Shown one piece after another: positions 13,635-22,809 of a stretch of 64,000 nucleotides of DNA; position 1 is the stretch's first letter; every line of letters begins with the position of its first letter. The stretch covers positions 2,108,001-2,172,000 of the forward strand of contig NZ_FNLM01000034.1 of NCBI RefSeq assembly GCF_900105725.1, given 5' to 3'. This DNA is from Gordonia westfalica (GTDB lineage: Bacteria; Actinomycetota; Actinomycetes; Mycobacteriales; Mycobacteriaceae). Both the position numbers and the translations under genes were made by a program. The notes under the pieces are model-generated. The model was not told the origin of the DNA. It did no database searches and saw nothing but the letters and a program-made list of their open reading frames with translations.

Positions 13635-15158
13635 ATGGAAGAAAACAGGGTCAATCCGGCTACCCCGGACGCCACCACTCCCGATCCCTGGGCCGAGGTG
13701 GCCGCACGTCTGGGCGCCGATCTGTTCCTCGACCTGCAGCCCGACCCCGAGGCGAGCGCCCGCGGACGCGGCGCGACGCTGCGCCGAACCCTCACCGAGG
13801 CGTTGCGTTCGGCCATCCTCGACGGGCGCCTCCCCGCCGGCACCGCGCTGCCGCCGTATCGCTCCCTGGCCGCCGACCTCGGTCTGGCCCGCGGCACGGT
13901 GTCGACCGTGTATCAGGAATTGATCGCGGAGGGCTGGCTGACCGCTCGCCAGGGTTCGGCCACGCGCGTGGCCGACGGCGCGGCACATCCCGACACCGCC
14001 ACGAAAACCACCGACACCCAGATCGCCGGCGAGGAACCCGCGCCGCCCACCACTTTCCGATTCCCGCACGACTTCTCGCTCGGTCAGCCGTGCGCGAGCA
14101 TGTTCCCGCGGACCGACTGGATCCGCGCCACCCGTCGGGTACTCACCGATGTCGGCGACGAGGCCTTCGCCCCGTCACACCCGCAGGGCCGACCGGAACT
14201 CCGCCGTGCCCTGAGTGGATACCTCAGCCGCACTCGCGGCGTGCGTGCGAGCGCCGATCGAATCGTGCTCGGCACCGCGGTACAGGCCGCGCTGGAGTTG
14301 TTGTCGCGCACGGTGTTCGGAGACGTGATCGCGGTCGAGAGCCGCGGCCTGCCCTTCCACTGGCAGGCAGTCGAGCGCGGCGGCACCCGGGTGATCCCGA
14401 TCCCTGTCGACGCCGAGGGCATGGTGATCGACGACCTCGAGCGCAGCGACGCCTCCGCGGTCCTGCTGTCCCCGAGTCACCAGTTCCCCACCGGGGTCGC
14501 CCTGTCCCCGGCGCGACGCATGCAGGTCATCGAGTGGGCCCGTCGCACGGGCGCGATCATCGTCGAGGACGACTACGACGGCGAGTTCCGCTACGACCGC
14601 GATCCCGTCGGTGCACTGCAGTCACTCGGTCCCGACGTCGTCATCCACGCGGGGTCGATGAGCAAGAGCCTCTCCCCCGCCGTCCGCGCCGGGTGGCTCG
14701 CCCTGCCACCGACGCTGGTGGACATCGTGGTGGGCGCCAAGGGAATGCGTGAGCCGGATGCGAGCATCGTCGATCAGCTGATCCTCGCGGACCTGATCCA
14801 CTCCGGCGCCTACGACCGGCACATCCGTCGGAGCCGGCAGTTCTATCGACAGCGCCGCGACGCACTCGTCGACGCGGTCAGCGCGAGCGGATTCGAAGTA
14901 CCCGGGATCGCCGCCGGACTGCACGCGGTCGTCCCAGTCGGCCACGCGGACGAGCACACCCTGATCCACCAGGCATTCGAACGCGGGATCGGCGTCGTCG
15001 GACTGTCGTTGTTCCGCCATCCCGACGCCGACCCGCTGCCCAACGGCGGTCTGGTCGTCGGATTCGGAGCTCCCGCGGCATCGACCTTCACGACCGACCT
15101 TCAGGCGCTGCGCGACCTACTCGCCGTATCGCCTGCTGCGCGCCGAGTGGTCCCGTAG
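13635..15158 (+). CDS. MocR-type regulator (GntR HTH + aminotransferase domain)
   Basis: 507 residues. The GntR-type winged helix (about 50-115) has LPPYRSLAADLGLARGTVSTVYQEL. The fold type I aminotransferase domain (about 140-500) has VEDDYDGEFRYDR and SMSKSLSPAVRAGWL, whose Lys is the PLP-binding residue. MocR proteins sense PLP or a PLP adduct; PdxR activates pyridoxal synthase genes, but no pdxS/pdxT is nearby. Divergent from an NmrA-like gene, its probable target along with itself. No Shine-Dalgarno precedes ATG 13635. Its 3' end is duplicated at 17409-17510. Confidence 0.9.
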   Translation: MEENRVNPATPDATTPDPWAEVAARLGADLFLDLQPDPEASARGRGATLRRTLTEALRSAILDGRLPAGTALPPYRSLAADLGLARGTVSTVYQELIAEGWLTARQGSATRVADGAAHPDTATKTTDTQIAGEEPAPPTTFRFPHDFSLGQPCASMFPRTDWIRATRRVLTDVGDEAFAPSHPQGRPELRRALSGYLSRTRGVRASADRIVLGTAVQAALELLSRTVFGDVIAVESRGLPFHWQAVERGGTRVIPIPVDAEGMVIDDLERSDASAVLLSPSHQFPTGVALSPARRMQVIEWARRTGAIIVEDDYDGEFRYDRDPVGALQSLGPDVVIHAGSMSKSLSPAVRAGWLALPPTLVDIVVGAKGMREPDASIVDQLILADLIHSGAYDRHIRRSRQFYRQRRDALVDAVSASGFEVPGIAAGLHAVVPVGHADEHTLIHQAFERGIGVVGLSLFRHPDADPLPNGGLVVGFGAPAASTFTTDLQALRDLLAVSPAARRVVP

Positions 15159-15212
15159 CGGACGGAGGAAATCGACGCGGCGGAACTCGGGCCAGTATGC
15201 GTCGGTGAACCA
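15055..15212. repeat. Diverged direct repeat, copy A
   Basis: About 158 bp aligns almost without gaps to 17407-17565. Copy A holds the true 3' end of the mocR gene plus a remnant of the uppS 3' end. The two copies bracket the membrane protein/PepSY gene pair. Confidence 0.85.
15117..15212 (-). pseudogene. Remnant of the uppS 3' end
   Basis: Read on the minus strand this codes for about 31 residues ending in a stop at 15117-15119. FTDAYWPEFRRVDFLRPLRD is nearly the same as the C-terminus of the intact Z-prenyl synthase at 17469 (FTDAYWPEFRRVDFLRALRD). Homology stops just upstream of this segment, near 15213. Confidence 0.8.
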
Positions 15213-15266
15213 TAGCGATCATTGACTGCTGGCCTGGCTGGTCGTCTCGGGATGAGAACCTCCGGA

Positions 15267-15272
15267 TACGAT
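15267..15272 (+). promoter_or_regulatory. -10 hexamer TACGAT, leaderless GTG 15279
   Basis: TACGAT followed by 6 nt and GTG 15279. This fixes the start of the membrane protein in the absence of a Shine-Dalgarno. Confidence 0.5.
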
Positions 15273-15278
15273 GCGGCG

Positions 15279-15821
15279 GTGAACCCGGCCCAGCAGACCG
15301 TGAACAGATTGCGCGGATGCGCAGTCGGCGCGCTGTCGGCGAGCACGGGCATCGCCGCGCACGGAATGGCCGGCGGCGCAGTTCCCGGCACCTCGTCGCT
15401 GCTGATGATGGTCGCCGCATGCGCAGTTCTCGGCGGGACCATCGGCACCACACTCCGTCGCCCGGCGGGTTGGTTCACGACCCTCGCGCTACTCGGCATC
15501 GGCCAGCTGATCGCCCACCTCTCCTCGACCACGCTCGCCGACGCATCCGCTCACGGACACCATGGCGTCGCAGCCGTGACACCGACGATGGCCGCCGTGC
15601 ACCTCGGCGCCACCGTCGTGGGCGCCGTCGCCATCCGCGTCGGGGAAGCCGCCATCCCCGCCCTCCTGACCGCGATCGTCGCCGCTCTCCGGCCGGTTCT
15701 CGACCCGCCGACCAGCAAGGCCCCGAGGCTCGATCGTCTCTTCCCCGTCCCCGACGCGCGCCGGAGTATCCGTGCCGTTGCCGCCCTGGACACGCGGGGC
15801 CCGCCACTGATGGTTCGCTGA
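15279..15821 (+). CDS. Four-helix membrane protein with His-rich loop
   Basis: 180 residues with about four hydrophobic segments (near 12-32, 36-52, 62-80, 105-150). A loop reading SAHGHHGVAA lies between the third and fourth. The C-terminal 45 residues are polar and Arg/Pro-rich. I do not recognise a named family. The His-rich loop, and the His-rich PepSY protein 121 bp downstream, suggest metal (copper or heme/iron) handling; this is inference. Both genes sit inside the 15055/17407 direct repeats and look like an inserted module. The GTG start is chosen from the leaderless -10. Confidence 0.65.
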   Translation: MNPAQQTVNRLRGCAVGALSASTGIAAHGMAGGAVPGTSSLLMMVAACAVLGGTIGTTLRRPAGWFTTLALLGIGQLIAHLSSTTLADASAHGHHGVAAVTPTMAAVHLGATVVGAVAIRVGEAAIPALLTAIVAALRPVLDPPTSKAPRLDRLFPVPDARRSIRAVAALDTRGPPLMVR

Positions 15822-15942
15822 CCATCCATTTCTCACCGACCCGCTGATCCAGCGGGCCGGTCGGCGCGTGTGATCCTGCGGTCGTCGACGGACCGATCAT
15901 CGTCGTGGCTGCCGCGCGCCGTCATCATCGAAAGGCGGGCCC

Positions 15943-17361
15943 GTGCCCCACTCTTCTTCTCCGGTCATGTCCGATCCACCCGACACTCCCGAGGCAGCCG
16001 GCTCACCACCGGCCCGTCCATCGGGCTTACAACCGCTCTTACGGCGACTGCACTTCTACGCCGGTGTGTTCGTCGCACCCCTCCTCGTCGTCGCCGCGAT
16101 CACCGGTGGCCTGTACGCGATCGCCCCGTCCCTCGAACAGGTCGTCTACCGCGATCAGTTGCACACATCCAGCTCCGGTGACGCCCGACCGGTCGCCGAA
16201 CAGGTCGGCGCCGCGGTTCGGCTCCGTCCCGACCTGACGCTCTCCGCGGTGCGGCCCGCGGCCTCCCCCGGCGACACCACCCGCGTGCTGTTCGACGACC
16301 CGACGCTCGGCGAATCCGAACGGCAGGCCGTCTTCATCGACCCGGTCACCCTGGAGTCGACAGGGCAGCTCGTCTCCTACGGCAGTAGTGCCGCCCTACC
16401 GTTGCGCGCTTGGTTGAGCGGCCTGCATCGCAACCTGCATCTCGGTGAGCCCGGCCGGATCTACAGCGAGCTCGCCGCCTCCTGGCTGTGGGTGGTCGCT
16501 CTTGGCGGTCTGGCACTGTGGATCTCACAGGCGAGACGTCGCCGTTCCGCGGAACACTTCGCGACGTTCGACGCCCAGGCGACCGGACGGAACCGGACCC
16601 GCAACCGCCATGGGGTGATCGGAGTGTGGCTCGTCGTCGGACTGGTGTTCTTGTCCGCCACCGGGCTCACCTGGTCGAAGTACGCCGGCGACAACGTGGC
16701 CGAACTCCGGACGGCGCTGAAGTGGACGACGCCCACGGTCGTCACCGCGGTGGGCGATCACGGTGATCACCATGCCGACCATGGTGCCGAACCACAACCA
16801 GACGCCTCGTCGATGATCGGCGAACTCGACCGCGTTCTCGATGCGGCGCGGGCCGCGGGTGTCGACGAGGCCGTCGAGGTGACCGTGCCGTCCGGCGCCG
16901 GCACCGCGTTCACGGTGACCGAGACGCGTCAGCCGTGGCAGTTCAGCCCGGACAGTGTCGCCGTCGACGGCGCGACCGGGCACATCGTGGACGAATCCCG
17001 GTTCGGCGACTGGCCATTGGCGGCGCAGCTGACGAACTGGGGCATCGCCCTGCACATGGGCATCCTGTTCGGCTGGATCAACCAGCTGGTGCTTCTGCTG
17101 TTGTCGATCGCCTTGCTGGCCTTGATCATCCGCGGCTACCAGATGTGGTGGCAACGCCGTCCACGGCGGTCGGGACGTCTTACGGTCGGCCGTCCGCCGG
17201 TCCGTGGCGCGTTACTTCGGCTGCCGGCGCCATCCGCGACGGCAGTCATCGTCATCGCGGTCGCCATCGGTTGGTTCCTGCCACTCCTCGGGCTCAGCCT
17301 GGCCGTGTTCGTACTCGTCGATGCCGTGATCTCGAGGTGGCCACGCCGCAGAGCGGACTGA
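15943..17361 (+). CDS. PepSY-associated transmembrane protein with His-rich insert
   Basis: 472 residues of the PepSY-TM (PiuB-like) family. TM1 (about 32-55) follows RRLHFYAGVFVAPLL; the HRNLHLGEPGR motif precedes TM2 (about 180-200); TM3 (about 225-245) and a C-terminal TM group (about 360-465) follow. A stretch GDHGDHHADHGAE (about 270-282) after TM3 is strongly His/Asp rich and probably metal-binding on the outside. Family members take part in iron-siderophore reduction or copper uptake. GTG 15943 has GAAAGGCGG upstream. It lies in the module flanked by direct repeats. Confidence 0.8.
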   Translation: MPHSSSPVMSDPPDTPEAAGSPPARPSGLQPLLRRLHFYAGVFVAPLLVVAAITGGLYAIAPSLEQVVYRDQLHTSSSGDARPVAEQVGAAVRLRPDLTLSAVRPAASPGDTTRVLFDDPTLGESERQAVFIDPVTLESTGQLVSYGSSAALPLRAWLSGLHRNLHLGEPGRIYSELAASWLWVVALGGLALWISQARRRRSAEHFATFDAQATGRNRTRNRHGVIGVWLVVGLVFLSATGLTWSKYAGDNVAELRTALKWTTPTVVTAVGDHGDHHADHGAEPQPDASSMIGELDRVLDAARAAGVDEAVEVTVPSGAGTAFTVTETRQPWQFSPDSVAVDGATGHIVDESRFGDWPLAAQLTNWGIALHMGILFGWINQLVLLLLSIALLALIIRGYQMWWQRRPRRSGRLTVGRPPVRGALLRLPAPSATAVIVIAVAIGWFLPLLGLSLAVFVLVDAVISRWPRRRAD

Positions 17362-17406: not shown

Positions 17407-17565
17407 GCGTCGGGTTCGGCACCCCCGCGGTGTCGACCTTCGCCACCGACCTGCAGGCGCTACGCGGCCTACTTGCCGAAGCGACGGCTCCGCGCGGAGT
17501 AATCCCGTAGCGCGCGAAGGAAATCGACCCGGCGGAACTCGGGCCAGTACGCGTCGGTGAACCAG
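17407..17565. repeat. Diverged direct repeat, copy B
   Basis: Partner of 15055-15212. Copy B contains the true 3' end of uppS plus a remnant of the mocR 3' end. Confidence 0.85.
17409..17510 (+). pseudogene. Remnant of the mocR 3' end
   Basis: The plus strand codes VGFGTPAVSTFATDLQALRG and on to a TAG at 17508-17510, against VGFGAPAASTFTTDLQALRD in the intact MocR C-terminus. No upstream MocR sequence is attached. It overlaps the intact uppS 3' end antisense. Confidence 0.8.
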
Positions 17566-18251: not shown

Positions 18252-18349
18252 CCTTCGCGGCCTCGTGTCACGTGGGACACCTTACGCGTCGGGGTGCGAG
18301 GAGGATGACCCCCGCCGACTTCCGGCGCTGTCCCTACAGGCGAGTAAGT

Positions 18350-18361
18350 TACGGTACCGTA
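18350..18361. promoter_or_regulatory. Palindrome TACGGTACCGTA over the trhA -10
   Basis: A perfect 12-bp palindrome. Its right half TACCGT (18355-18360) is also a -10 hexamer 7 nt before GTG 18368, so a bound factor would sit on the promoter. Confidence 0.45.
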
Positions 18362-18367
18362 GGTTTC

Positions 18368-19042
18368 GTGAACACCCTGTCGAGCCCGCCCCCGGGGGTG
18401 GCCGATCGCCCCCGTCTTCGCGGCGTCATCCACCACTACTCCGCCTATGTGGCAGCGGTCGCCGGTCTCGCGCTGGTCATCGGGGCCGCGATCCTCGACG
18501 GCGCCGTCGCCGCGCTGACGTGCGCGATCTATGCGGTCACCGTGGTCGGGCTGTTCACCGTCAGTGCGACCTATCACCGGGTCCCGTGGAAGACCGCGCG
18601 TGCGCGCATCCGGATGAAGCGCGCCGACCACGCGATGATCTTCCTGTTCATCGCCGGCACCTACACGCCGTTCTGTGCCCTCGGACTGCCGTCGCCGGCG
18701 AGCTGGTGGGTTCTCGGCATCGTCTGGGCCGGCGCGCTCGGCGGGTCTCTGCTCAAGATCCTCTGGCCCGGAGCTCCCCGCTGGCTGGGCGTCACGCTCT
18801 ACATCCTGCTCGGCTGGGTCATCGTCGCGGTGGCTCCCGCCCTCGTCGCCCAGACCGGCTACCTGATCATGATCCTGCTGGCCCTCGGCGGCGTCCTGTA
18901 CAGCGTCGGCGGGGTCCTCTACGCGGCCCGCTGGCCAAACCCGTGGCCTCGGACCTTCGGTCATCATGAGGTCTTCCACCTATGCACCGCGGTGGCCGCA
19001 CTGCTCCACTACGCCGCCGCCTGGCTGGTCGTCGCGACGTAG
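18368..19042 (+). CDS. trhA: TrhA/hemolysin III family membrane protein
   Basis: 224 residues with seven predicted membrane helices. Family motifs: SATYHRVPW (Ser/His), HAMIFLFIAGTYTPFCAL, and the C-terminal GHHEVFHLCTAVAALLHY with the metal-type His cluster. Related to PAQR receptors; bacterial members affect membrane fatty-acid balance, and a hydrolase activity is suspected. GTG 18368 follows a leaderless -10. Divergent from uppS, the same arrangement as Rv1085c-Rv1086. Confidence 0.9.
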   Translation: MNTLSSPPPGVADRPRLRGVIHHYSAYVAAVAGLALVIGAAILDGAVAALTCAIYAVTVVGLFTVSATYHRVPWKTARARIRMKRADHAMIFLFIAGTYTPFCALGLPSPASWWVLGIVWAGALGGSLLKILWPGAPRWLGVTLYILLGWVIVAVAPALVAQTGYLIMILLALGGVLYSVGGVLYAARWPNPWPRTFGHHEVFHLCTAVAALLHYAAAWLVVAT

Positions 19043-19051
19043 TGTCCGCAT

Positions 19052-19070
19052 GCCGGCCGGCACCGCCGGC
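19052..19070. terminator. GC hairpin between convergent trhA and the Met/His peptide gene
   Basis: GCCGGC (19052-19057) and GCCGGC (19065-19070) can pair across a 7-nt loop. It lies 10 bp past the trhA stop and directly beyond the peptide stop, so it could serve both. No U-tract. Confidence 0.35.
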
Positions 19071-19160
19071 TCACATGTGCATGTGCATCGGCGGCATCAT
19101 CCCCATGCCGTGCATCCACATCATCAGGTGGTGACAGATGTGCATCATCTGATCGAGCAT
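19071..19160 (-). CDS. 29-residue Met/His-rich peptide, putative metal-binding
   Basis: ATG 19160 is preceded by an excellent Shine-Dalgarno (GGGGGAGGTGAGG) with GGAGGT eight bases away. The 29-residue product has 12 Met, 6 His and one Cys (residue 9), no Lys, Arg or Glu and one Asp (residue 3). It opens MLDQMMHICHH, has a central MMWMHGMGMMPP and ends in MHMHM. Met- and His-rich clusters of this kind bind Cu(I)/Cu(II) in known copper proteins. The composition is far outside that of its neighbours. It lies on the same strand as hsp20, 155 bp beyond its stop. A GTGACC-N17-TACCAT promoter-like pair lies in the gap. Coding status rests on ribosome site and composition; function is inference. Confidence 0.65.
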   Translation of the reverse strand: MLDQMMHICHHLMMWMHGMGMMPPMHMHM

Positions 19161-19315
19161 TCTTCCTCACCTCCCCCGGTTCGACGACGACACCGGACCG
19201 GTTCAGGAAGATGGTAGGTACCGCCCTGTGCCAGGTCACCCGCCGTCATCGTCGACGGGTCACGTCCGGCGGCAACACAATTCACGACAATGTCGCGTTC
19301 GGTGCCGTTACCTCG

Positions 19316-19771
19316 TCACTTGTCCTTGCCGCCCTCGGCTGGCGTCCGCTTGATCTCGATCCGCTTCTCGGGAGACGGCGCTTCGCTCACCGGCATCGTC
19401 ACGGTCAGGATGCCGTCGGTGTAGGTCGCGTCGATGTCGCCCGCCTTCGCGCCCTCGGGCAGCGGCACGGAGCGATAGAAACTCCCGTAGTGGAACTCCG
19501 TCCGGGTGCCTTCTTCGCTGCGCTCCTCGCGTTCTGCCTTGATCGTCAATCGCCCGTCACGGACGCTGATGTCGAAGTCCTTGTCCGGGTCCATGCCAGG
19601 CAGTTCGGCTCGCACGGTGTACTTGCCCTCATCGAGGTGTTCCTCGACGCGGATCAGACGTCCCGCCCCGGAGCTCCATGGCGGCATGGACTCGAATCGG
19701 GACATCAGATCGGACCAATCCGGCAGCGCCGGCCACGACGGGTTGGGACGGCGGGCTGATCGGATACTCAT
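19316..19771 (-). CDS. Hsp20/alpha-crystallin small heat-shock protein
   Basis: 151 residues. The alpha-crystallin domain (about 40-140) runs from IRVEEHLDEGKYTVRAELPG through VRDGRLTIKAER to YTDGILTVTMPVSE, with the C-terminal IEIKR as the I-x-I anchor. ATP-independent holdase in the cytosol. ATG 19771 has GGAGGT four bases upstream. In M. tuberculosis the DosR-controlled HspX belongs to this family, but no convincing DosR box was found here, so heat or redox control is as likely. Confidence 0.92.
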   Translation of the reverse strand: MSIRSARRPNPSWPALPDWSDLMSRFESMPPWSSGAGRLIRVEEHLDEGKYTVRAELPGMDPDKDFDISVRDGRLTIKAEREERSEEGTRTEFHYGSFYRSVPLPEGAKAGDIDATYTDGILTVTMPVSEAPSPEKRIEIKRTPAEGGKDK

Positions 19772-20002
19772 GACTACCTCCGAAAACAGGGGAATCTCGC
19801 GATGACTGACCTCGTGATTGCGTGCCGAATCAGCACGTCGCGGTAGGGCCAACCGTCATCCATCGAAGGACTGCGGACTCAGTCCCACCCCTCGGCTTCT
19901 CGTCACCAAGCCCTCTCCACCACGCCTCCTCTTCACGCGAACATCACCTTGCCGCCGCTTCGCGGTGACGTCCGCGTCAGGTGATCCTGGTCGGCTGAGG
20001 CC

Positions 20003-21637
20003 ATGCCGGGAACTCCGGCCGGTACACCGCCGGCGATAGTCCACTGCGACCCCGACCCCACCCTTCGAGCAAGCACCTCCCGACGCCGGTTTCTCTCCTG
20101 GGCCGGACTCGTGACGGGACTGGCCTTCACCCCGGGACTGCTGGGCGGCGCTCCTCCTGCTGCGACCTCCCCGGCGAATTCGGCCGGCGTGTTCTCCCTC
20201 GGTGTCGCCTCCGGCGATCCACTGCCGGACGGCGTCGTGTTGTGGACGAGACTGGCGCGCAACCCATTCGCCCCCGGAGGCGGGATGGGTTCGCGTCCGG
20301 TCCGCGTCGAGTGGGAGATCGCGACGGACGAATCGATGACGCGCGTCGTGCGCCGCGGGACCGCACACGCGACGCCGGAATGGGCCCACAGCGTCCACGT
20401 CGACGTGCGCGGGCTCGCCCCGGCGGCCGATCACTTCTACCGTTTCCGGGCGCTCGGTGAGATCTCGCCGATCGGCCGGACCCGCACCGCGCCGGCTCCG
20501 AACGCGCGGCCGGGTGCGCTGTCGATCGCAGTGGCGTCGTGCCAGAACTGGGCCGACGGCTACTACCACGCTTTCGGCGACATGGCCGCGCACGCACCGG
20601 ATCTGGTGCTGCACCTCGGTGACTACATCTACGAGAAGCCGATCCCCCTCGACGCCCGCCGCGGCGCGATCCGGCCCGCATCGGCGACCCACGAGGCTGT
20701 CGGCCTCGACGACTATCGGGAGCGGTACGCGCTCTACAAGTCCGACCCCGACCTGCAACAGGCCCACGCGATGTCGCCGTTCTCGATCTCCTTCGACGAT
20801 CACGAGATCGACAACAACTGGGCCGCAAAGGTTCCCGAGGACGAGACACCCCTGTCGCGGTTCGCCGTACGGCGCGCCTGTGCGTTGCGGGCGTGGTGGG
20901 AGAACACCCCGGTGCGAATCACCGCGCGACCCGACGGCACCGTCATCCGCGCGCATCGGCGCCTCGCCTTCGGCGATCTCGCGGAGATCAACCTCCTCGA
21001 CACGCGCAGCCACCGCGACGATCAGGTCAACGGGGACAACGACTCCCCGCAGAACGCCCGCACCGCGGATCCGTCACGGACGATCCTCGGTGCGGCGCAG
21101 GAACGCTGGCTCCTCGACGGCCTGGCGTCGAGCCGTGCTCGATGGGATGTCCTCGCCCAGCAGGTCCCGATGGCCGACCTCGCCCGCGGCAGGTCCCGGG
21201 CGGTCAGCATGGACGGGTGGAGCGGCTACGAGTCATCGCGACGGCGCGTCCTCGACGGGGCGGCGCACCGCCGCGTACGGAACCTCGTGTCCCTCGCCGG
21301 CGACATCCACCGGAGTGTCGTCGCCGACCTGCGGACCGACTATGCCGACGACTCCCCCACTCGCGGAGTCGAACTCGCCACGACGTCGATCACCTCGGGC
21401 GGCGACGGCGAGGACAGCGACGACGGCGACCGCGAGTTGAAGGCCGCGTCGCCGCATGTGCGGTTCGGCAACTCCCAGCGCGGCTATCTGCTCAATCGCG
21501 TGTACCGCGACCGTTGGGAGGCCGAGTTCCGCGTGGCACCGTCGGTGCGATCACCACGCGGCTCGCTGCGACGACGCGCCACCGTCACGATTCCCGACGC
21601 CGCTGGCGAGGTCGACGTAGGCCAATCCGCTCCCTGA
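20003..21637 (+). CDS. phoD: PhoD-like alkaline phosphatase/phosphodiesterase, Tat-exported
   Basis: 544 residues. A twin-arginine signal (STSRRRFLSWAGL, about 25-37) is followed by a hydrophobic stretch. The PhoD N-terminal beta domain (FSLGVASGDPLPDGVVLWTRL) precedes the metallophosphatase core with HLGDYIYE, SFDDHEIDNNW and SLAGDIHRS, the metal-binding Asp, His and Asn residues. Such enzymes hydrolyse phosphate mono- and diesters outside the membrane with Ca/Fe. The last ten codons run into a 47-bp repeat unit, and the stop codon is supplied by it. A shorter C-terminus in the ancestor is likely. Confidence 0.88.
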   Translation: MPGTPAGTPPAIVHCDPDPTLRASTSRRRFLSWAGLVTGLAFTPGLLGGAPPAATSPANSAGVFSLGVASGDPLPDGVVLWTRLARNPFAPGGGMGSRPVRVEWEIATDESMTRVVRRGTAHATPEWAHSVHVDVRGLAPAADHFYRFRALGEISPIGRTRTAPAPNARPGALSIAVASCQNWADGYYHAFGDMAAHAPDLVLHLGDYIYEKPIPLDARRGAIRPASATHEAVGLDDYRERYALYKSDPDLQQAHAMSPFSISFDDHEIDNNWAAKVPEDETPLSRFAVRRACALRAWWENTPVRITARPDGTVIRAHRRLAFGDLAEINLLDTRSHRDDQVNGDNDSPQNARTADPSRTILGAAQERWLLDGLASSRARWDVLAQQVPMADLARGRSRAVSMDGWSGYESSRRRVLDGAAHRRVRNLVSLAGDIHRSVVADLRTDYADDSPTRGVELATTSITSGGDGEDSDDGDRELKAASPHVRFGNSQRGYLLNRVYRDRWEAEFRVAPSVRSPRGSLRRRATVTIPDAAGEVDVGQSAP

Positions 21638-21720: not shown

Positions 21721-22809
21721 TCAGGCGCGCGCGAGCGCGTCGAGAACGGTGGCGCTGGCCTCCCAGCCCATGCACTTGTCGGTGACCGACTTGCCGTAGA
21801 TCAGCGGGGTGGCATCGGTGGACTGGGCGCCCGGCTCGAGGAAGCTCTCCAGCATCACCCCGCTGATGTTCGACGCCTCGCCGGCCTCGCGCGCGGCGCG
21901 CAGGGTCGCGGCGATCTCGGTGGCGACCTCCGCCTGGCGGATGTGGTCCTTACCGGAGTTGGCGTGCGAGCAGTCGATCATCACGCGTGCGGGCAGACCG
22001 GCCTTCTCCAGGGCCGTCGCAGCCGACGCGATGGACTCGGCGTCGAAGTTGGGTCCGCGGGTGCCGCCGCGCAGGATGATGTGGCAGTCCTCGTTGCCGG
22101 CGGTCTCGACGACCGCGCCGTTGCCGAAGTCGTCGACTCCGAAGAAGACATGTTCGGCCGCAGCGGCATTCACGCCGTCGATGGCGACCTGGACGTTGCC
22201 GTCGGTGCCGTTCTTGAAGCCGATCGGCATCGACAGACCCGATGCGAGCTGGCGGTGCACCTGTGATTCGGTGGTGCGGGCGCCGATCGCACCCCACGCG
22301 ACGGCGTCGGCGATGTACTGCGGGCTGGTCGGCTCGAGGAACTCACAGCCGACCGGCAGGCCCAGGTCGATGATGTCGAGAAGCAGCGACCGCGCGGTCC
22401 GCAGCCCGCGTTCGACGTCGAAGGTGTTGTCCATGCCGGGGTCGTTGATGAGACCCTTCCAGCCCACCGTGGTGCGCGGCTTCTCGAAGTAGACCCGCAT
22501 GACGATCTTCAGACGATCGGCGTAGGCCTCGGCCAGCGGCGCCAGCCGACGCGCGTAGTCGAGGGCGGCGATCGGATCGTGCACCGAGCACGGCCCGACG
22601 ATGACGAGCAGACGATCGTCGCGGCCGGCGAGGATGTCGGCGATCTCGTCGCGGTCGCGCGCAACCGCCAGCGCTCGGCGCGCGGTCAGGGGCAGCTCGC
22701 TGCGGACGGTGTCGGGCGACGGGATCGGGCGGAAGGACTTGATCCGGCGATCAGAGGTCGACTCGGCCGCCTCGGCCGTGCGCGTCGGGAGGTCCGGGAG
22801 AGTGGTCAC
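21721..22809 (-). CDS. aroG: Type I DAHP synthase (3-deoxy-7-phosphoheptulonate synthase)
   Basis: 362 residues. It condenses phosphoenolpyruvate and erythrose 4-phosphate, the entry step of the shikimate pathway. Motifs of the AroF/G/H class: LLVIVGPCSVHDP, MRVYFEKPRTTVGWKGLINDP, GARTTESQVHR, IGFKNGTDG, IILRGG and MIDCSHANS (metal and substrate residues). Most mycobacteria rely on a type II enzyme, so this is the other class. The upstream region on the same strand carries an aromatic-rich leader peptide and a terminator, pointing to attenuation by aromatic aminoacyl-tRNA levels. Confidence 0.95.
   Translation of the reverse strand: MTTLPDLPTRTAEAAESTSDRRIKSFRPIPSPDTVRSELPLTARRALAVARDRDEIADILAGRDDRLLVIVGPCSVHDPIAALDYARRLAPLAEAYADRLKIVMRVYFEKPRTTVGWKGLINDPGMDNTFDVERGLRTARSLLLDIIDLGLPVGCEFLEPTSPQYIADAVAWGAIGARTTESQVHRQLASGLSMPIGFKNGTDGNVQVAIDGVNAAAAEHVFFGVDDFGNGAVVETAGNEDCHIILRGGTRGPNFDAESIASAATALEKAGLPARVMIDCSHANSGKDHIRQAEVATEIAATLRAAREAGEASNISGVMLESFLEPGAQSTDATPLIYGKSVTDKCMGWEASATVLDALARA

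Follow-up and report, generated by a model that had tools for sequence, protein, structure and literature searches.

A conserved methionine- and histidine-rich micropeptide gene in Gordonia westfalica represents an apparently undescribed family with a possible role in Cu(I) handling

The 64 000-nucleotide stretch of Gordonia westfalica DNA analyzed here (the window) encodes, at 19071–19160 on the reverse strand (stop codon included), a peptide of 29 residues that is unusually rich in methionine and histidine. On the evidence of its homologs and of their substitution pattern, we regard this as a real gene for a micropeptide whose family has apparently not been described. The peptide of the window probably binds copper, and for the family as a whole we lean, with some reserve, towards a cytoplasmic Cu(I) buffer or donor that would serve under copper and low-oxygen stress. 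The result adds an overlooked gene family to the well-studied soil actinobacteria, illustrates that gene calling can overlook a conserved member of stress clusters, and suggests a possible link between copper control and low-oxygen survival. Moreover, 29 residues are short enough for synthesis and a direct Cu(I)-binding assay.

Translation from 19160 to 19071 gives 12 methionines and six histidines (together 62% of the residues), one cysteine and one aspartate, the single acidic residue, which agrees in every count with the preliminary description of this DNA. That description had also judged the Shine–Dalgarno sequence GGAGGT (19169–19174, reverse strand) to be well placed, and the distance between it and the ATG is indeed 8 nucleotides. 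An in-frame stop lies three codons upstream of the ATG and the open frame comprises 31 residues, so that the peptide frame is not much longer. A methionine plus histidine content of at least 40% occurs in this single case among the 707 ORFs (20 residues or more) of the window, in none of 4387 ORFs from 370 kb of control DNA, and in none of 31 954 ORFs from 30 dinucleotide-Markov simulations of 64 kb each, in line with the earlier view that random G+C-rich DNA does not yield such a composition. No second copy of the peptide was found in genome G000 at E≤10.

A pattern search allowing up to two mismatches detected the peptide in four of 59 Gordonia genomes (G000, G003, G005, which is G. amicalis, and G035); the pattern is missing from the other 55, and the gene is therefore dispensable. 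In G026, whose TrhA protein is 93% identical, the peptide gave no match at E≤10 and the stretch is absent, trhA being followed by the gene that corresponds to window position 21721. Three exact pattern matches in non-Gordonia genome contigs turned out to be out-of-frame readings of other genes, and 22-base matches in five Gordonia genomes lie inside another gene and were rejected as chance. A first profile, built from the four Gordonia peptides, picked up a single distant candidate (G269, E 0.069), which was admitted by judgement on its motif and ribosome site and whose later E-values include itself. Once G269 had been added, G414 matched at E 1.4e-4, and the profile including both matched 28 of the 401 genomes of the taxonomic family holding Gordonia and Rhodococcus at E≤0.01. 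The profile of an alignment of 29 members (A4) was used for two genera, and matched 11 of 28 genomes of genus g10 at E≤0.1 and 30 of 118 genomes of genus g3 at E≤0.05. We take genus g10 to be Rhodococcus on the strength of a neighboring stretch, 66% of which aligns with Rhodococcus plasmids at 84.5% identity. In a sample of the phylum, two of 396 genomes matched at E≤0.1, namely the window's own and one with an internal stop. The preliminary description had proposed looking for such short frames in Gordonia, Rhodococcus and Mycobacterium; the first and the Rhodococcus-type g10 do hold them, whereas the best match in genus g2, inferred to be Mycobacterium, was no better than E 0.07. Members were found in eight genera, and three plasmids of a plasmid collection encode members as well. 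Since a tblastn search of that same collection, queried with the window's own peptide and one from Rhodococcus, returned nothing at E≤10, that search is blind to such peptides.

The members share the core H-x2-M-M-[W/C/F]-[L/M]-H-x2-G. Those in A4 are 26–35 residues long and contain 38% methionine, 10% histidine, 10% proline and 2.1% cysteine; lysine or arginine is present in five of the 29 and cysteine in 17, the remaining 12 being cysteine-free. His10, Met14, His17, Gly20, Met25 and Met27 are invariant in A4, where conservation is partly by construction, as the extraction motif required Met14, His17 and Gly20 and favored starts with a ribosome site. Position 15 is tryptophan in 22 of the 29 members, cysteine in five and phenylalanine in two. 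Among 24 g3 peptides picked on profile score only (L241 left out; residues counted by eye), His10 is present in 22 and replaced by cysteine in the other two, Met13-Met14 is present in 23 and Gly20 in all 24, while His17 is found in 17 and is otherwise glutamine (4) or arginine (3). Ribosome sites recur among the family members. A 44-residue Rhodococcus-type form (L160, 9109–9240) carries the core in tandem duplicate and is 98% identical to a ‘hypothetical protein’ of a Rhodococcus record. The tail of another member (L222, 1471–1632, reverse strand) has seven Pro-Met repeats.

The ratio pN/pS is 0.10 over 16 close pairs and 0.18 over six independent pairs (nine synonymous changes at 68 sites and 10 non-synonymous changes at 430 sites). 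In the 16 close pairs the ORF is 91–98% identical, compared with 55–96% for the 120-bp flanks. The ORF is clearly more conserved than its flanks in most pairs, but in a few Rhodococcus pairs the flank comes near the ORF, and in L120/L155 it lies slightly above. Two Gordonia pairs show one synonymous and four non-synonymous changes, too few for a clear signal, so the argument for selection is drawn from the family as a whole. For the family, the codons look constrained, consistent with purifying selection. Conserved DNA with a non-conserved frame, which the preliminary description had named as a refutation of its reading, is the opposite of what the family exhibits.

The suspicion that the peptide had escaped description is borne out as far as our searches reached: no A4 member matches Pfam or NCBIfam at E≤0.01, the profile is without match among PDB sequences at E≤10, and no description was found in the literature searched by term, a scope that most subscription papers fall outside. 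It had likewise been said that the frame is too short for usual gene calling. On the Rhodococcus qingshengii plasmid NZ_CP077418, the peptide lies between the SHOCT gene and the next gene, which bear the consecutive locus tags RS30235 and RS30230, and no gene is recorded there; the plasmid gene table is incomplete, and the missing annotation was judged at this one site.

In the window, the gene hsp20 for a small heat shock protein (19316–19771, reverse strand; PF00011, E 2.6e-22), with its Shine–Dalgarno sequence GGAGGT at 19776–19781 (reverse strand), lies upstream of the peptide gene on the same strand, and trhA of the hemolysin-III family (18368–19042, forward strand; PF03006, E 8.1e-44) is the convergent neighbor. 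The 155 bp between hsp20 and the peptide gene enclose the remnant of an Hrp1/Rv2626c-like CBS-domain gene (19203–19304, reverse strand) with two deletions, which matches from 19304 to 19211 and from 19214 on. In G. amicalis the CBS gene is intact between hsp20 and the peptide gene, with E 3e-54 for its match to the Rv2626c structure; at E≤1e-25, G005 is the only one of the 59 Gordonia genomes with CBS matches, two in number. The peptide loci of G003 and G035 gave no match for hsp20 or CBS, and the peptide there has its own upstream region. A putative regulatory motif, GACGGTTGGCCCTA (19844–19857, reverse strand), precedes hsp20 in the window, and GACGGTCGGCCCTA, one base different from this 14-base motif, precedes the lone peptide gene in G003 and G035. 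The co-expression with hsp20 that had been proposed earlier is thus possible in two Gordonia species, as hsp20 adjoins the peptide gene in two of the four Gordonia loci, but it is not general, the wider association being with SHOCT, dormancy-type and copper genes. One terminator-like site between hsp20 and the peptide gene (one found, 0.4 expected) argues mildly against simple co-transcription of the two.

The window also contains, at 15222–17361 (forward strand), a block of a PepSY_TM protein and a neighboring membrane protein with a histidine-rich loop. This block is 95% identical to L027 5478–7603, which in G. amicalis stands between the peptide gene and trhA; in G003 and G035 it is not at the peptide's place. 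Direct repeats of 157 bp (84% identical; 15056–15212 and 17408–17564) flank the block in the window, and the second copy covers the end of a gene that we take to be uppS-like. The repeat pair suggests an insertion with duplication.

Gene neighborhoods were compared across 32 loci, that is, six earlier ones and 26 of 29 fetched regions; L170 and L172 (no peptide by motif) and L176 (unconvincing) were dropped. The 29 regions are part of the family-wide matches and include G522 and G512, which match at E>0.1 and cover most of the model. In the Rhodococcus-type loci, the peptide gene stands directly behind the gene for a SHOCT membrane protein, often before a WS/DGAT gene. Around it lie genes for universal stress proteins and for a flavodoxin, as well as a trehalose-phosphatase/GH65 fusion and an oxidoreductase of the Acg family that scores above the NF047509 cut-off; DUF1876 and NiFe hydrogenase genes join these on three annotated Rhodococcus plasmids. 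Relative to the peptide, the SHOCT gene is upstream in the Rhodococcus-type and downstream in the g3 loci, and a same-strand SHOCT gene is found within 600 bp in 15 of the 32 loci. In L158 and L164, the peptide gene is located between a multicopper oxidase gene and a gene for an ATPase above the copper-subfamily cut-off (TIGR01511); close relatives of these copper genes occur in L162, L166, L167 and L168, and a multicopper-oxidase fragment in L175. The ATPases of L158 (9433–11829) and L164 (9820–12309) have CPD where CPC is usual, and an HMA domain without CxxC.

Hsp20, Hrp1, USP, Acg, WS/DGAT and DUF1876 are grouped here as dormancy (DosR-type) genes. The dormancy class is present in 17 of the 32 loci compared with one of 20 controls from the same contigs (Fisher 0.0003), and the copper or heavy-metal class in 10 of 32 compared with zero of 20 (Fisher 0.008), values that overstate the association because L027, L029, L120, L158 and L164 had supplied the markers (without them, copper 8/27 and dormancy 14/27) and because 13 loci come from g10 and hence are not independent. 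For four of the 10 copper-class loci (L163, L171, L174 and L175), a heavy-metal type other than copper fits the ATPase more closely or at least equally well. At least one of the SHOCT, copper and dormancy markers is present in 26 of the 32 loci. Because the g10 loci are not independent, 25 new g3 loci among 34 listed places were tested: a marker lies within 1.5 kb in 20 of the 25 (19 of 24 without L241, an unconvincing member), compared with two of 100 control windows of mixed genera. The assignment of the protein at L120 7349–7804 as ‘HPF’ was withdrawn, Pfam giving a weak hydrogenase match below cut-off; this protein was outside the 32-locus count and never the only marker of a fresh g3 locus.

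A search for known types of regulatory site near the peptide genes turned up no demonstrable operator. A DosR consensus did not outscore shuffles across 33 upstream regions (lowest p 0.09), and the pattern GxCxxTxGGxCC occurs at 0.176 per kb in dormancy loci and 0.084 per kb in controls (reversed control pattern, 0.153 and 0.141 per kb). A CsoR-type palindrome, ACCCC...GGGGT, lies in L158 between the multicopper oxidase and peptide genes and is placed differently in L162, L175 and L155, at an overall density (0.042 per kb in copper loci against 0.027 per kb in controls) that shows no clear enrichment; a related copper-repressor pattern was found within 450 bp upstream in only two of 33 regions (L150 and L173).

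How might such a peptide work? An AlphaFold2 model of one 35-residue member gave a single helix at residues 3–18 and no strand (mean pLDDT 78.6, pTM 0.38; block pLDDT 84 and 88), and when residues are placed on an ideal helix, an arc of 100 degrees takes in His10, Met13, Met14 and His17. No signal sequence is seen by inspection, and the peptide would accordingly stay in the cytoplasm. Its N-terminal half may form a helix with these four residues on one face beside Trp/Cys15, and the Gly-Pro-Met-x-Met tail may contribute further ligands, so that Met and His together would form a soft site for Cu(I). A CusF-like holding of Cu(I) by methionine and histidine with a tryptophan is possible in view of the conserved His10, Met14 and His17 and the frequent Trp15 (22/29), residues that the extraction motif favored. 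The peptide would buffer Cu(I) or pass it to a copper ATPase, above all at low oxygen, when multicopper oxidase, an oxygen-dependent enzyme, cannot work. Such Cu(I) handling would explain its presence in both copper and dormancy-type clusters. The cusFCBA mutants of E. coli are sensitive to copper when oxygen is absent but hardly when it is present (PMC7558416), and by analogy this may offer a reason for one peptide in both kinds of cluster. The original idea of a minimal copper sponge or chaperone finds partial support, in that the composition and the conserved residues fit a set of soft-metal ligands and some relatives adjoin copper-type ATPases and multicopper oxidases, but queries with multicopper oxidase and copper ATPase gave no match within about 5 kb of the peptide in the four Gordonia loci. 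The CPD motif of the two reference ATPases and the replacement of His17 in seven of 24 g3 peptides also weigh against a Cu(I) role. Broader, and distinctly more doubtful, is the proposal of a class of cysteine-poor Met/His/Trp copper micropeptides that, together with the SHOCT membrane protein and P-type ATPases, would protect dormant or hypoxic actinobacteria from Cu(I) independently of oxygen.

The association with SHOCT genes could be read differently, with the peptide acting at the membrane as a small partner or regulator, either of the SHOCT protein or of a P-type ATPase, and methionine serving as a flexible hydrophobic residue rather than a metal ligand. The predicted helix, and the nearness of SHOCT genes on either side of the peptide gene according to lineage, agree with this. 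However, His10 and the Pro-Met tail are conserved equally with the hydrophobic residues, no clear membrane span is seen by inspection, and the SHOCT queries gave no match alongside the peptide in 17 of the 32 loci, including the four of Gordonia (a protein so short may escape the queries), and we consider this reading unlikely. A different ligand at low oxygen (heme, silver, mercury, or nickel for the neighboring NiFe hydrogenase), or a methionine redox buffer, would suit the universal stress protein, Acg-family, WS/DGAT and trehalose-phosphatase genes around the Rhodococcus-type peptides and the DUF1876 and hydrogenase genes on the three plasmids; but histidines and methionines at fixed positions speak against a redox buffer, and in several genera copper-type genes are repeatedly found close to the peptide, which makes these readings rather improbable.

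Being short and of odd composition, the peptide could also be a regulatory leader whose translation controls a downstream gene, and many relatives do have a same-strand gene downstream; in L158 and L162 it encodes a copper-type ATPase, elsewhere WS/DGAT or SHOCT. This is contradicted by the gene order in Gordonia, where the identified downstream gene is on the opposite strand in all four loci; moreover, both neighbors in L164 and the downstream neighbor in L167 are on the opposite strand, amino acids are more conserved than codons in the family, and Rfam has no match in window 18300–20100. We therefore find a leader very improbable. Scarcely credible, finally, is a spurious ORF within conserved non-coding DNA: the frame is shorter than usual gene calls and unannotated at the one place judged, but the family pN/pS is well below 1, the flanks are mostly less conserved, members occur in eight genera, and ribosome sites recur.

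Compared with known systems, the proposed Cu(I) micropeptide resembles the DosR-type dormancy genes in location, as it lies inside such clusters (in the window, beside hsp20 and the CBS remnant), and we know of no peptide of this kind in a DosR-type regulon. By sequence and predicted structure, the family lacks the defining features of cysteine metallothioneins, Csp proteins and CusF. The RicR regulon of Mycobacterium tuberculosis, with MymT, MmcO and socAB, likewise places small proteins among copper-response genes, with a multicopper oxidase as a regulon partner (PMC10470581 and PMC10961391). MymT, as described there, binds Cu(I) by cysteines, whereas the present peptides are Met/His-rich and lack its cysteine-rich metal-thiolate character, with one cysteine in the window peptide and 12 of 29 members having none. 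Csp1 and Csp3 are helical Cu(I) stores in which Met and His coordinate the metal at the entry end (PMC7558416), but they are cysteine-lined four-helix bundles, and peptides of 26–35 residues with few cysteines differ from them in size and in residues. CusF is a periplasmic five-stranded beta-barrel (same source), in contrast to a short predicted helix with neither signal sequence nor strand nor PDB match. In CusF/SilF, chaperones for Cu(I) and Ag(I), to go by the title of a paper cited in PMC10656224, Cu(I) is held by methionine with a cation–pi contact to tryptophan, and the tryptophan beside methionine and histidine in the family peptides may, by analogy, recall that contact.
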